Positions 7,052-46,172 of a DNA stretch of 64,000 nucleotides are shown one piece after another. This DNA is from Panorpa germanica (taxonomy: Eukaryota > Arthropoda > Insecta > Mecoptera > Panorpidae). The notes beneath the pieces were generated by a model that saw only the letters and a program-made list of their open reading frames with translations, was not told the DNA's origin and made no database searches. Each line of letters opens with the position of its first letter. The first letter of the stretch is position 1. Where the stretch lies: assembly GCA_963678705.1 (NCBI GenBank), contig OY783212.1, positions 310,001 through 374,000 on the forward strand. Reading direction: 5' to 3'. A program made the position numbers and the translations under genes.

Positions 7052-7496
7052 ATGGAGCCTATGGTAACTGATCAAAGCGAATTAAAAAATAACACAACTC
7101 TTACCGTTGAACAAGTGGAAATAGATATCTTGCCAACTATATACGATATTATACGAAGGTATGTTTATGTAATTATTTTTATTTAATTATATAAGAATTT
7201 ATTTTTAGGTTAATTAATGTTACATATGTGTTATAATTATTAATTTCAGTGTAGAACGAGACCCACACGACAGTGCTGGTAAATTAAGAGAATCTCAAGA
7301 TTGTGCAACCAAAGTTTTGGAGCTGCAGAAAAAATTATTAAAAGCTAGAAATCAAATAAAGCAACTCCCTGGTATAGATCTTAATCCAGAAGAACAATTA
7401 AAAAAAGTAGATACCCTTAGAAATCAATTAAAGTTGAAGGAAGAATTACTTCATAAATATCGTAATATGTATTCATTTGATTCTTCTAAAATATAA
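7052..7496 (+). CDS. MED9: Mediator complex subunit 9 (2 exons, 117 aa)
   Basis: Exons 7052-7158 and 7250-7496, with donor AG|GTATGT and acceptor TTTCAG|T. The predicted protein has the MED9 layout: an N-terminal segment VEIDILPTIYDIIRSVERD followed by a long heptad-rich helix (LQKKLLKARNQIKQLPG ... LRNQLKLKEELLHKYRNMY). MED9 belongs to the Mediator middle module, which links transcription factors to RNA polymerase II in the nucleus. The length fits the family. The stop lies only 41 bp before the next start codon, so the two frames may share one transcript; no AATAAA followed by a GT-rich element is obvious in the gap. Confidence 0.85.
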
Positions 7497-7537
7497 GAGT
7501 GTAGATATAAAAATAAATAGTTTCAATATATTTCAAA

Positions 7538-7783
7538 ATGCTTAAGTTTTTACTACGTTATTTTGCAAACAACGAACAAATGATTACTCGTTTGTCTGAA
7601 TCTTACCCAGTACGTAGAGCAGCACAATTGGCAGTTTCTGCGTTTTTCAAAACAAAATCAATTACTCAAGATTCTGAAAAATTACTGAAAGAAAAGGAAC
7701 GCATAATGAAATTTACCAAAGAATTTACAAAAAACATTAAGGAAGAATATCAGAAAATTAAAGATCAACAGAATGTTAAATAA
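7538..7783 (+). CDS. NCBP2AS2-like microprotein (81 aa), cluster member A
   Basis: Single exon. The segment RLSESYPVRRAAQL (residues 18-31) matches the hallmark RLSES-P-RRAAQL stretch I remember from the small conserved animal protein NCBP2AS2. The protein is basic; the N-terminus (LKFLLRYFANNEQ) is amphipathic, and a Lys/Glu-rich helix ends with EEYQKIKDQ. The family is poorly characterised and the human member has been linked to mitochondria or secretion, so no function is assigned. The frame follows MED9 by 41 bp, and the next polyadenylation signal, AATAAA, is at about 7824, so a MED9-microprotein dicistronic mRNA is possible. Residues 1-75 align with the starts of the next two genes. Confidence 0.8.
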   Translation: MLKFLLRYFANNEQMITRLSESYPVRRAAQLAVSAFFKTKSITQDSEKLLKEKERIMKFTKEFTKNIKEEYQKIKDQQNVK

Positions 7784-8416
7784 TGAATTTTTTTGTAATT
7801 TAGAGAAACTGTAAAAATTATAAATAAAATACCCGATAGTTACTTCAAAGATTAATCATGGCTTTTATTTACCTCTCATTTCACTAATTTACTTATGTAA
7901 ATTCAGAATTACAACACTGAGGCTCAATAACTCGAGTTACAGCATCTCGAACAAAAAACATTAGGAATGTAAAACAATTGAAGATTAATTGATAAATTTG
8001 TACCGGATAGAATATCTCATCATGTTATACAATACAAATTATGTGTTTACCTGTGGGATGTTGAATAATATGTCATCATTATGGACTGGGATACTTAGGA
8101 TTCACTTTCGATATAATATTTTTTTATATAATTTTCCACATTCCTTTTTTTTAGTAAAATATGTAATATTCCCGCATGAAGATCAAGTCAGAAGTTACAC
8201 TTCTTATTTCTGTTTTATTGCATTTAAAGAAAATGAAAACAAAACACTATTGCAATAAAAAAATTACTAATGTATAACTGTCATAAATAATTTTAACTAA
8301 TTTCCTTTTTTCACAATACCATACATGAATATTATTATATAAATTCATGATGTTATTAAAAAAAAATAAAGGTAATTTACGTAAAGAAAATAACATAAAG
8401 TAAAAGTATTGTAAAA
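7784..8416. other. Intergenic, AT-rich
   Basis: It holds the 3' end of the preceding transcript (AATAAA near 7824) and presumably the promoter of the gene at 8417. The open frame 7989-8258 has no codon structure or family resemblance and is not called. Confidence 0.4.
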
Positions 8417-8980
8417 ATGATTCGCAAAATATGCAAATTTGTTGTACAGCAAGAACATAAATTTCAAAACATAAACAGTGACTCTCCCGTAAAGAAACTT
8501 GGTGAAATTGGAGTAGCTGTATTTAATGGCACTGTAATTGTCGTCAGACAAGGGCTCTCCATCGCCCATACCTCCTATACTTCAATATCTCAACAATTTT
8601 CAACTGAGTACAAAAGAGCCAAAGCAGAACTCGAAGCACAGGTACGTGAAAAACCGTTGTTTAAGGATCCAAAATCTGCTCACTTTGGTGAAGCGATGAA
8701 AAAAGCACAGAATACATTTCAGCAATTGAAAAAAACCGCTGCGGAAAATAGTATGTTGAATAGAGACAAAGGTGATTCGAAAGAAGACCAAAAGGCTGAG
8801 AAAGCCCACCCACCGGTTGATACTTCAAAAAAAGAAAGCAAATCTGATAGCAATACTAAAATCGTTAGAGTAAAATATTTAACTCCAATCTCTGATCACA
8901 AGCCGGTTAGTCTACAAAATTCTGACCCTGATAAACAAATAACACCGCTCATTAAAAAGACGAGCAAAGAAGATAAATGA
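8417..8980 (+). CDS. NCBP2AS2-like paralog B (187 aa, intronless)
   Basis: The first ~70 residues align without gaps over the core with member A: (I)RKICKFVVQQE ... SPVKKLGEIGVAVFNGT corresponds to LKFLLRYFANNE ... YPVRRAAQLAVSAFFKT. Both domains close with an EY..(A/I)K motif (Y65 here, Y71 in A). The RRAAQL core itself is diverged. After residue ~75 comes a unique Lys/Glu-rich tail, predicted hydrophilic and disordered (for example REKPLFKDPKS, then KEDQKAEKAH). The first ATG of the open frame is used, with AAAA before it. No membrane segment is clear. Similarity to A and C suggests tandem duplication followed by fast divergence; the function is unknown. Confidence 0.7.
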   Translation: MIRKICKFVVQQEHKFQNINSDSPVKKLGEIGVAVFNGTVIVVRQGLSIAHTSYTSISQQFSTEYKRAKAELEAQVREKPLFKDPKSAHFGEAMKKAQNTFQQLKKTAAENSMLNRDKGDSKEDQKAEKAHPPVDTSKKESKSDSNTKIVRVKYLTPISDHKPVSLQNSDPDKQITPLIKKTSKEDK

Positions 8981-9429
8981 CTATTTAGTTGTAACTTGCG
9001 AGTATTTTTAATGATTCCCTTATTTTACTAAAAAACTTTATGTAATAGAATACAATTAAAAATAAAAATACAATAATTAATGTGATAATGTAAAACAACA
9101 AGTTAAAAGTGCTACATTATGTAAATAATAAATATTGGGATGATATTATAATTCGTTTTAGTTCTTCATTATAAATATATAAGTAGAATAATTAGGGCAA
9201 CTAAGTAGACTGCATTTTTAAAAACAATAACAAAACAAAATAACATTTAACAATTTTCATTCTAAATTCAACTTTTTAATAAATTTTATTATGATAATTA
9301 TATTAAAAATAAATCTGTGTGTGTAAAGAATTAAAAACAATCTATATAAATATAATAGTAACTTAATACTCTTTTTCAATTTGTCTAAATTCTGGTGTTG
9401 AACGGTCTTAAAATTTAAGATTTGTTAAA
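8981..9429. other. Intergenic, AT-rich
   Basis: It holds AATAAA-like signals near 9050-9070 for the gene ending at 8980 and the upstream region of the gene at 9430. Nothing else is recognisable. Confidence 0.4.
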
Positions 9430-12081
9430 ATGGTTCTCAGATATGTATGCCGTGTTATTGTTAGGAACGAGGAACAGTTTAAAAAAATATTCAAATATTA
9501 TCCAATTAATGAAATAGGACGACTGGGATGTCGTCTCGCTTTAGAAACTGCAAAGATTATAGACGTAAGCCTGCTTTATTTACGTTCAGAAGGAGTTTAC
9601 CGTTCGAAAAAATTAGTAAAAAGGATGAAATCAAAAATGATAGAAGAGTACAATATAGCAAAAGAAGAACATAGGCAGGCAACGGGTAAACATACTTTGA
9701 ATAGTGTAACATCGAAACATATAAAGTATGCTTTCATAAACGTTTGTAAACATAATCCTTTATACGATAATAAAATGACAAGTAGTTTTTTATATGAACC
9801 CAAGAAGACAGCAGCCCTGTTTATGTACAAACGAAAACTAGATAGTAAATGGAAAAGAGAATCGAAGCCATCCTTTAGTGATACAGTATTATCACACATT
9901 TTAAATAAAATATCTACGAAGTGTCAACAATATTTGCCAACTAAAACAGATAAGTCGTTAATAATGCCAGTTGCCTTGAACCAACAATATAAAAACAATC
10001 CAATCAATTCAAAATTACTTCTTGTACCAGCAGACTTAAGTTCTATATCGCCTTCATTAACTGGAGATTCCGGAGTGAATTACAATTATAACAAAATGTC
10101 TTCAGACTACCTTTGTAATAGAATTGATGTATTGAACAACACAAATCAACTATTGAGGCATAGCAAACTTGAAAATGTTGTATTTCATCACATAAAATCT
10201 GCAAATCTCTACAAACCACAAAATACAAAAATGTCCGATCCTAAAACCATAACTAAACAATTTACGACATTAAAAACACATGCAGTTGTAACAAATCTAA
10301 TTTCCAGACCGAGTGTGCCAAAGCAAGAAATAAGTAATATATTTAACGAAAATCGTTATAAATATTACAATACTGAGCAAGAAACTATTGGCCGTAAAGC
10401 TCCCTTAAATAAACAACAAGAGAGGGAAGAACAATCATTTGAAAAGATTCATAAAAAGAAATTGGAGTGGATTATAATAGATGAAAAAAAGAATAGAAAA
10501 GAAATTCGAGTGAAATCAACTCAAACGAAAAAACCCTGTACCAATGTAAAAGTTGACTCCTCCTTTTGCTTTTCCAAACCAGGGTTGGTGCCTGTACATT
10601 ATTTAACTAAACCAGAACAGAAATGGAATTGTTGGTATGAATTACCTGGCTTTAAATCAGCTGAATCAGAATTTATTAATGAATTTGAGAAAAAGCTGAT
10701 TTCACAGAGGAGTGATAATTATTACCGTTCTAGTGCAAACTCACCTCGAATAATGGTTCATAGTAAAGAAAAAATGTCTAATGTGTTAAGAAGCCCCACG
10801 CCTACAACCTCTTTAGGATTGTATTTACCCCAAACAAATAATAACAAAGTAAAGGCTAATATAAAAGTATCTGAAGAGATTTCTGTTGTTAAAGAAGGAA
10901 TGTCTAAGGATTTGAGACATACCAAGCCTGAATCCTCTTTAGGGTTATATTTTGGGCAAAAGAAAGATAATAACTTAAGTTTTAACGTAAAATCACCTCA
11001 AGTAATATCTCAAGAGAAACAGGTAGCTAATAGTAACGCAGAATTACTGCAAAAAGAAGAAAATGTGCCATCTAATGCAACATCACCGCTAGTAAAGTCT
11101 GAAGAGCAACAAAAACCTTTTAATGATGTAAGATACATCATGCCTGAGTCCTCTTTAAGATTAAATGCAACGCAAAAAGAAAATAAGGCCTGTTCAGATG
11201 TAAAATCAGCTGAAGTGAAATCTGAAAACAAAGAAGCAACTCGTAATGATGTAAGATACAAGAGACCTGAGTCCGCTTTAGGATTATATGCTCATGTAAA
11301 ATCACCTGACGATAAGTCTGAAATTGAAGAAGAAACATCTCATGATCCAAGATACATCAGGCCGGAATCCTCGTTAGGTTTAAATTCTCCGGATATAGAA
11401 GATAAAATACATGCTAATATAAAACCGCCGGAAGTGCGGTCTGATACCAATGTATCAGCTTCTAATAATATAGGTCTTGAGAGTACTGAATCAAATAGAA
11501 CACGCGAGGAAAAGAATCTAACTACTACACAAGTAGTACCTTCACCCAAAAAAAAGACACCTAATGATTTAAGTCAGGGCGATACCCCCAAGTTATCTGA
11601 CGGTAAATCACTTCAAGTAATTCATTCTGATGCTGACAAATTTACCTTGAATAATTCACCGGATATATCCAGCTACACTAGACCTAAATCCGCTTTAGGA
11701 CTATATTCTAACACAAATTATTTACCAATGTGCTTCTTAAAAATAGGTTCCGAAATACAGCCTGCTACAAGTTCAGGCCCAACATCAAAAATACAGTCTC
11801 AGGAAGGATCCTTTGATTTAAAGAATGAAGCAAAGGTAGTTGAAAGAATTCAAAAAATATCAAAGCAGGATGAATTATCGGAGTTAGATAAAGGCTCTAC
11901 CACAAAATTAAACGAAAAAAATAAGGAAGACAAAAACTCTACATCATTCTGGCCAGATTTATGGATGAAGCAAACATACAGGAAACAATTTGACGAATCT
12001 TACGCTCCTCATTCGAAAACCGCAACAAAATCAACTAAATCTACTAAAAGAGAAGATAATAACTTTAAAAAACTAGGTTGA
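9430..12081 (+). CDS. NCBP2AS2-like paralog C with long repeat tail (883 aa, intronless)
   Basis: Residues 1-~85 (VLRYVCRVIVRNEEQFKK ... YYPINEIGRLGCRLALET, closing IEEYNIAKEEH) align with members A and B. The rest is unlike anything I recognise: a Lys/Asn/Ser-rich region to ~450, then six degenerate copies of a motif around RY-RPESSLGLY, starting at about residues 453, 494, 566, 607, 639 and 745. These are separated by acidic/Lys linkers that often contain VKSPEV-like or KSE-like strings. The C-terminal ~100 residues are charged with one aromatic island (FWPDLWMKQTYRKQF). It is a 2.6-kb open frame with no intron, and AATAAA follows at about 12107 and 12175. A single uninterrupted frame of this length argues strongly for a real gene; the function is unknown. 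Confidence 0.8.
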   Translation: MVLRYVCRVIVRNEEQFKKIFKYYPINEIGRLGCRLALETAKIIDVSLLYLRSEGVYRSKKLVKRMKSKMIEEYNIAKEEHRQATGKHTLNSVTSKHIKYAFINVCKHNPLYDNKMTSSFLYEPKKTAALFMYKRKLDSKWKRESKPSFSDTVLSHILNKISTKCQQYLPTKTDKSLIMPVALNQQYKNNPINSKLLLVPADLSSISPSLTGDSGVNYNYNKMSSDYLCNRIDVLNNTNQLLRHSKLENVVFHHIKSANLYKPQNTKMSDPKTITKQFTTLKTHAVVTNLISRPSVPKQEISNIFNENRYKYYNTEQETIGRKAPLNKQQEREEQSFEKIHKKKLEWIIIDEKKNRKEIRVKSTQTKKPCTNVKVDSSFCFSKPGLVPVHYLTKPEQKWNCWYELPGFKSAESEFINEFEKKLISQRSDNYYRSSANSPRIMVHSKEKMSNVLRSPTPTTSLGLYLPQTNNNKVKANIKVSEEISVVKEGMSKDLRHTKPESSLGLYFGQKKDNNLSFNVKSPQVISQEKQVANSNAELLQKEENVPSNATSPLVKSEEQQKPFNDVRYIMPESSLRLNATQKENKACSDVKSAEVKSENKEATRNDVRYKRPESALGLYAHVKSPDDKSEIEEETSHDPRYIRPESSLGLNSPDIEDKIHANIKPPEVRSDTNVSASNNIGLESTESNRTREEKNLTTTQVVPSPKKKTPNDLSQGDTPKLSDGKSLQVIHSDADKFTLNNSPDISSYTRPKSALGLYSNTNYLPMCFLKIGSEIQPATSSGPTSKIQSQEGSFDLKNEAKVVERIQKISKQDELSELDKGSTTKLNEKNKEDKNSTSFWPDLWMKQTYRKQFDESYAPHSKTATKSTKSTKREDNNFKKLG

Positions 12082-12514
12082 TTTGTTGAGTGATGTTTTT
12101 ACCCTAAAAATAAAATGTATTGTACACGTTTTTGTAATTAATGTTGTATAAATATTTGTTATCAATAATTTCCAATAAAAAAGTGTCATTTTATTTAGTT
12201 ATTTTTATTAGATTTGAACTGTATGAGTATGCATGTTTGTCAAATTAGTCTTATCTACACTTATCTTCCTCTTAATTTAAATACCCTCCTCCATTCTTAA
12301 TTTTGTAATAACACTTCATTATCTTAAAAATATTAACAAAATTCCTTTTTTTTATTTTATATATTAAATACTTTTAATAAGAAAACAATATAACTAAAAT
12401 TAAATCGAATAGTTTAATTTAAATAAAAAATATTTTAGACGTACCAGACGGTGTATTATTACATAACAAATATTTCTTAAACTTGCTGAATTCAAATAAA
12501 TTATACATTACGGT
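12082..12514. other. Convergent 3' ends of paralog C and GTPBP1
   Basis: AT-rich interval between two converging genes. Plus-strand AATAAA signals near 12107 and 12175 serve paralog C. Minus-strand signals (TTTATT on the given strand) for GTPBP1 are present around 12350-12360. No gene is visible. Confidence 0.45.
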
Positions 12515-18641: not shown

Positions 18642-19592
18642 GCTTATCGTCAGCATAAATTGTATCTGGTCATAATTGGCTTCAGTCAATTTTATCTAGT
18701 TCAATTATATTCAGCCACAATTGCCTTTATTGCTATGCCTATTTCAAAGGTAAGCCTGTCGCAAGTAAAGATAGGCCTAAGTCATTTGCGACATGGTGGT
18801 CACTAGCTACAGAGGAAGAGATTAACAATTGGAACAGTCAGTCTAATTTAAAATTTTGAACTGGTTTGTGCTTTTATATCCTTTTAGCCATATTTTAAAT
18901 AACCCCTTTACCCTTTACAATATTGGAATTTTATGTATTTCTCGATACAGCTGTAACTAGTATCTGACATTTGACTATGCACTCTTACCTCTGATGTATA
19001 ACAGAAAAGGCAATTCACAGAACGGAAAAGGGTAAGATTTTTTAATAAATTTAGATCCTTTTCTCAACCCAACGTAGTCACTTAAGAAGCTTTACGTACA
19101 TGTAAAATGTTACTACTAATACTACAGTAGATAAAATACAGAATCGTTTAAGAGATGGCGCTGCAACAATCATGTAAACAACGCCTGGTACGTATGCTAC
19201 TGCTAATACATACTAATTTATTATTAATCAAAGACTTTGTTAATATAATTTTAAGCAATTTCATAAGAATTTATTGAGAATAAATATACCTACATTTCAT
19301 GAAGTTTTGAGGTACATGTCTGTACAGATAATGTAGACATGGCAATTGAGATGATAGCCATATACCACCCACAAAACTTCCAGACCAGCTTAAATATATT
19401 TTTGCTTTAAAATACTTTGATCGAATATTTCAGACAGAAGCCAAAGATTTAACAGAAAATATAAGTGTGACTGGATATAATTGATTTTCGCGTGGGACCT
19501 AAAAAAGAAAGTAATTTATAGCTACATATGGCGAGTTGTGGTAGGTTTTTCTGGGTTTAATTAAAATTTGTGAATGGCAACACTGGTAAATA

Positions 19593-20022
19593 CGAGGCAT
19601 GTTTTTTAAGTAAGTACCGTTTTGCGATTCCGCCTTTGCAGCGCTACGGTCGGCGTTCCGCGACAATCATCAAATCTTTTAAATGGGAAACTCTAGATCA
19701 TCCTCCATACAGCCCTGATCTGGCGCCCAGCGACTACCATTTGTTCCTGCACTTGAAGAAACACCTGGGTGGTCAGCGTCTTCAAGACGATAACGAAGTC
19801 AAAACAGTTGCGATACAGTGGTTAACAAGTCAGGCGGCAAAATTTTATGAGGAGGGTATTCAAAAACTGGTGCCACGTTATGACAAGTGCCTCAATATTC
19901 ACGGAAATTATGTAGAAAAGTAGATTAAGGTACAGGCTTTTATGTAAAAATAAAATTATTGCGATATCTTTGCACGTCTTTTTTTAATTCCAGAACGGTA
20001 CTTACTTAAAAAACACGCCTCG
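19593..20022 (+). mobile_element. Deleted mariner element with intact ends
   Basis: Inverted termini of ~28 bp start CGAGGC(A/G)TGTTTTTTAAG and continue to AAGTACCGTT. The element is flanked by TA (19591-19592, 20023-20024). The body of 430 bp retains only the last third of the transposase, so this copy cannot move itself but keeps both ends. Confidence 0.9.
19660..19923 (+). pseudogene. Mariner transposase, C-terminal remnant
   Basis: The frame encodes HPPYSPDLAPSDYHLF, the motif around the third catalytic Asp of mariner DD34D transposases. A normal C-terminal helical region and a stop at 19921-19923 follow. The N-terminal DNA-binding domain and the first two catalytic Asp are missing, because the deletion joins the left terminus directly to this part. 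The open frame starts artificially upstream of the element at 19570. Confidence 0.9.

Positions 20023-29104: not shown

Positions 29105-46172
<17,068 letters not shown>

Follow-up and report, generated by a model that had tools for sequence, protein, structure and literature searches.

The locus described here raises the question of whether three consecutive genes directly behind MED9 in the insect Panorpa germanica share one NCBP2AS2-type domain, and what the long tails of two of them might do. The window, i.e., the whole stretch of DNA analysed, comprises 64,000 nucleotides (bases 310001-374000) of one contig (C9; OY783212.1) of the 464-Mb genome, which is assembled in 249 contigs (GCA_963678705.1). 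The genes, here called A (7538-7783, 81 amino acids), B (8417-8980, 187 amino acids) and C (9430-12081, 883 amino acids), all lie on the forward strand, and each is a single frame open from ATG to stop, as described in an earlier sequence-only reading of the locus. AAA stands directly 5' of the ATG in each gene, and AATAAA follows at most 81 bases 3' of each stop, at 7823 for A, 9061 for B and 12109 for C, with another behind C at 12174. The longest stop-free run in 300 first-order Markov simulations for gene C was 137 codons, compared with its 883 open codons; for gene B (187 amino acids), 2000 simulations of equal first-order composition gave at most 139. A length of 81 codons was attained in 0.85% of 2000 composition simulations, so that the coding status of gene A rests more on its match to NCBP2AS2 than on its length.

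A domain of about 80 residues is common to the N-termini of A, B and C. It spans residues 1-80 of B (8417-8656, +), as judged from alignment, shuffles and profile searches, and residues 1-86 of C (9430-9687, +), as judged from blastp, shuffles, profiles, a genome search and an AlphaFold 2 (AF2) model. The alignment confirmed the motif positions (K/R)xx(L/C)(R/K)xxx(N/Q/R)(N/Q)E, P(V/I), (L/I)(A/G)(V/C) and EY..(A/I)K given by the sequence-only reading. Its gap-free core held for the first ~36 columns only; the EY..K end lines up once gaps are introduced, 2 for A and 8 for B with C as the reference. Identity to gene A over the domain is 14% for B and 23% for C, and the likeness returns past the 36 columns at EY..(I/A)K (residues 64-78). 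Blastp alone is weak, with A-C at E 0.002, B-C at E 0.11 and no match for A-B. The local scores of A-C and B-C were reached by none of 2000 shuffles, each in both directions, and that of A-B by 10 and 7 of 2000 in the two directions. A shift of the ungapped alignment by a single residue in either direction turned all three pair scores negative. The three-way ungapped score over the 36 columns is 147, compared with a null mean of -87 (standard deviation 21.8), and 0 of 20,000 shuffles reached it. Shuffles that keep the pattern of hydrophobic, basic, acidic and other residues gave a mean of 40 (standard deviation 17.6) and likewise reached 147 in 0 of 20,000 cases, and the likeness therefore exceeds a shared amphipathic start.

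Among the 28 open reading frames (ORFs) of the window that start with ATG and have at least 70 amino acids, the best non-self matches of A, B and C are the other two members; scores within the trio are 44-70, versus at most 33 for the remaining 25 ORFs. Profile searches covered the 157 stop-to-stop ORFs of at least 60 amino acids in the window, with E scaled to 15,000 proteins (Z). Sequence-profile comparison linked all three proteins, and the lack of a significant match, which the sequence-only reading had named as refuting, was not seen: profiles of two members recovered the third (A+C found B at E 0.0015, A+B found C at E 0.0019, B+C found A at E 0.0045), with the best ORF outside the trio at E 3.1 or worse. 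The gene C domain as a single query found A (E 0.0057) and B (E 0.019), the next ORF standing at E 140. Searched against the whole genome, its only non-self match at E ≤ 10 is gene A (E 6.96, weak alone), which lies 1.9 kb upstream of gene C. No closer copy of the domain was found elsewhere in the genome at this search sensitivity; other equally diverged copies would be missed, because the search with A itself reports neither B nor C. Some single-query results speak against kinship. As a single phmmer query, A scores an unrelated ORF better (E 5.2) than either B (9.6) or C (11); with B alone, an unrelated ORF (0.14) stands just above C (0.17); and whole A, B and C as well as the B domain match only themselves in the genome search. 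On the combined sequence comparisons, A, B and C are judged to be homologous, a paralogue group with one shared domain.

The relation of this group to NCBP2AS2 runs through gene A. The human NCBP2AS2 query is a provisional sequence, its length of 99 amino acids agreeing with published papers. Gene A matches it at E 2e-10 with 21 of 67 identities, RLSES and RRAAQL being intact, and is a micropeptide gene with a RLSESYPVRRAAQL core and a single short domain of 81 residues without a tail (family size approximately 80-100 amino acids). Human NCBP2AS2, also named KRASIM and HIAR, is a 99-residue micropeptide and resembles gene A in its short single domain and in its RLSES-P-(V/I)RRAAQL core. In humans the gene runs antisense to NCBP2, unlike gene A with its place behind MED9. 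B and C differ from NCBP2AS2 in lacking the core, in being matched only via A, and in their tails. The RLSES-P-RRAAQL core is restricted to A, in line with the sequence-only reading, and B and C keep just the proline and the register.

The earlier description of the trio as NCBP2AS2-like is borne out as regards homology and the match of A, and finds no support in a direct match of B or C. Neither gives a meaningful direct match to the provisional human sequence, and a profile of A plus the human sequence misses both (C at E 25, B unlisted), which tells against their membership. The provisional human sequence was recovered by the A+C profile (E 7e-5) and the A+B profile (E 0.006), matches that are probably carried largely by A. 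Gene A is assigned to the NCBP2AS2 family from its sequence. B and C, which give no direct family match, are classed as diverged paralogues of A and not as NCBP2AS2 orthologues, because they are tied to NCBP2AS2 only through A. A match to another family was not seen either: none of the three proteins exceeded the curated cut-off in Pfam-A, with sub-threshold matches for A and B and none for C. Sequence searches of the PDB gave best E values of 0.13 (A) and 0.17 (B) and nothing at E ≤ 1 for C, none of them credible, and the three-row A/B/C profile found at best a designed protein (E 0.059), which is not credible. In viral contigs, scans for related sequences gave 20 (A), 12 (B) and 11 (C) pattern matches, none of them confirmed. 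The expansion had been called undescribed, a claim that holds within the titles and abstract openings of the matches listed, where no insect NCBP2AS2 family appears; subscription journals and protein databases lay outside this search, so insect annotations may well already list B and C as uncharacterised proteins.

The long tails reported for B and C measured approximately 107 and 797 residues past the domain. The tail of B (8657-8980, +) is polar and lysine-rich (20% lysine, 25% glutamate plus lysine), with no Pfam family over the cut-off. The tail of C (9688-12081, +) is polar (20% glutamate plus lysine) and has no Pfam family. It contains six variants of a PESSLGLY-type motif (10783-11718, +), written P-(E/K/T)-(S/T)-(S/A)-L-(G/R)-L-(Y/N), starting at residues 458, 500, 572, 613, 645 and 752. 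This count was reached in 0 of 5000 shuffles, the pattern having been defined on C itself. Within the motif region, Tandem Repeats Finder reported two tandem DNA copies of a 96-base unit (11198-11389, +; 75% matches, score 214), and the tail of C is therefore taken to have grown partly by duplication. Residues 1-12 carry a net charge of +2 in A and +3 in both B and C, without acidic residues in any of the three. AF2 predicted helices at residues 2-11, 13-22, 25-42 and 46-80 for gene A (three-row alignment) and at 2-12, 14-22, 28-53 and 60-85 for the first 90 residues of gene C alone. The same four-helix order in the two models is weak agreement between the predicted domains.

The best available explanation for the locus is a tandem duplication of an NCBP2AS2-type gene followed by the use of the domain for docking, of the tail as a scaffold, and by a tissue-restricted role; as a whole it is about as probable as its negation. 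One ancestral micropeptide gene directly behind MED9 would have been duplicated in tandem to give A, B and C. Gene A would have retained the conserved short form, which is presumed to be the ancestral one. B and C would have diverged far: the RLSES-P-RRAAQ core would be lost, the register about the central proline kept and new tails gained, that of C being enlarged partly through internal duplication of a PESSLGLY-bearing unit. Docking, whether to a membrane or to the partner complex of gene A, may be the task of the basic N-terminal domain; the polar tail would then work as a scaffold or tether and take the docked partner to a new structure, on the model of Knon. Of the guesses as to function, a role restricted to one tissue, most likely the male germ line, has the best precedent.

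That precedent is Knon (Knotted onions) of Drosophila, a testis-enriched paralogue of ATP synthase subunit d that has 734 amino acids and 32% identity to ATPsynD (PMC5364652). It extends 532 residues past the homology region, in a charged stretch (28% glutamate plus lysine) predicted to be mostly unstructured, and is located on spermatid mitochondria, where it is required for their shaping and for Nebenkern structure (PMC5364652). B and C resemble Knon in joining a short ancestral N-terminal domain to a long, added, polar C-terminal tail without known relatives. The domain is a different one and no homology is claimed, so that a testis or mitochondrial role of B and C would be an analogy. In its furthest form, the explanation has an orphan animal micropeptide domain turned, among insects, into a docking head; the long scaffold behind it would carry a repeated PESSLGLY ligand and help to build a sperm-specific structure, mitochondrial or other. 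This form is distinctly improbable. Were it true, the long-tailed copies would show what the widespread micropeptide binds.

A number of observations weigh against the docking and scaffold parts of the explanation, and against a mitochondrial version in particular. Both AF2 models are poor, with a mean pLDDT (predicted local distance difference test) of 68 for A and 49 for C. The helical moment of residues 1-12 is unconvincing, being equalled by 4.6-10.2% of shuffles, and that of the human sequence is equalled by 27%. Disorder of the C tail is not clear-cut: a crude charge-hydropathy index, the one measure applied to it, puts 14 of its 20 windows on the disordered side and 5 on the ordered side, with 1 at zero. 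BDH1 is reported as the sole 3q29 gene in MitoCarta3.0 (PMC13326166), which implies that NCBP2AS2 is unlisted there and weakens the mitochondrial version. The human peptide is reported to lie in the cytoplasm, binding KRAS, and is elsewhere treated as a secreted or secretome factor. It is also described as a hypoxia-induced angiogenesis factor, and one 2026 paper calls its function "essentially unknown". Among the matches listed, literature searches for a mitochondrial location of human NCBP2AS2 gave no support, and the one paper returned by the narrowest of them is that with the MitoCarta3.0 statement, which speaks against it.

Three other explanations were weighed. The first concerns the likeness itself: three unrelated proteins might have converged on a similar basic amphipathic start helix, serving as a targeting signal, and a proline turn. 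The low identity of B (14%) and C (23%) to A and the lack of a blastp match for A-B would suit such convergence, and short helical segments of similar composition easily score. The class-preserving shuffle, however, retains exactly that pattern and did not reach the observed score in 20,000 trials; moreover, the gene C domain singles out A from the whole genome, and the EY..(I/A)K likeness falls outside the 36 tested columns. Convergence is very improbable. The possibility that B and C belong to an older, separate insect family, sharing only a remote ancestor with NCBP2AS2, is a more substantial one, and has a real chance of being correct even if a lesser one than not; the trio would then be an ancient syntenic block and not a lineage-specific expansion. 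Divergence is extreme for tandem copies, and over the 36 columns the B-C score (60) exceeds the scores of A with B and C (44 and 43). Over the whole domain, on the other hand, the A-C score (70) is above the B-C score (63).

It is also conceivable, and rather unlikely, that only the duplication took place as proposed: B and C would have diverged from A as its copies, their tails drifting under weak constraint without any scaffold role and the domain still doing the work it does in A. The expansion of the C tail by short repeats and its lack of a Pfam or PDB relative would suit such drift. Yet the frame of C has stayed open through 883 codons, and the six motif copies retain the L and the S/T-S/A pair, which drift would blur. 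The likelihoods given for tail drift and for an older family overlap with that of tandem duplication followed by docking and a scaffold role, and are not shares of one whole. If the trio did arise by duplication from a micropeptide gene, it is a likely added case of short genes gaining long tails after duplication. What the domain needs can be read from the residue positions common to all three proteins, a natural experiment on a micropeptide domain, and a protein as large as C is easier to localise and to pull down than a peptide of 81 residues.

An open frame at 7218-7496 (+) holds the final coding exon of MED9, identified by Pfam Med9 (PF07544, E 2e-19) and its coordinates. Its stop ends at 7496, and the gap to the ATG of gene A (7538) is 41 bases, with an AATAAA at 7512 inside it. 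Given this gap, a dicistronic MED9/NCBP2AS2-type transcript is possible. A published table of Drosophila P elements has a single insertion bearing the names of both MED9 and CG42518 (PMC4978919). Because one insertion carries both names, CG42518 adjoins MED9 and may be the counterpart of gene A. No paper pairing 'dicistronic' with 'MED9' was found in the literature search. CG42518 is what we take, with low confidence, to be the fly homologue of NCBP2AS2, dicistronic with MED9. If this is right, the place of gene A is old, and B and C are additions.

Other features were noted besides the trio. A frame at 45809-46021 (-) gave E 3.1-10 with the two-member profiles and E 23 with the B domain; it is AT-rich, has no Pfam match and was rejected as noise. 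A minisatellite of ACGTCA-type units with periods of 11 and 22 occupies the left end (1-375). The frame at 19561-19923 (+) holds DHPPYSPDLAPSDYHLF and has no Pfam match at E 0.01; the motif is presumably a mariner-type transposase signature. At 30514-32322 (-), a single long stretch codes for a P-type cation ATPase (E1-E2_ATPase, E 8.8e-49), read as SERCA-like; the local GC content rises to 0.43. The remnant of a Pao-type long terminal repeat (LTR) element extends over 35955-39061 (-), with DUF1759 and Peptidase_A17 at 36369-38075. It is flanked by frames at 35955-36257 and 38774-39061, the translations of which agree over approximately 80 residues and which are probably its LTRs. The mitochondrial contig codes for a COX1 that looks like that of an insect when translated with the invertebrate mitochondrial code (table 5). 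Across the whole genome, COX1 gave 20 matches, 19 of them outside the mitochondrial contig (C249) and each of these with TGA codons or other stops. These 19 are read as nuclear mitochondrial copies; a single insertion accounts, in pieces, for some of them, and contig C5 holds two pairs with identical scores, approximately 100 kb apart.

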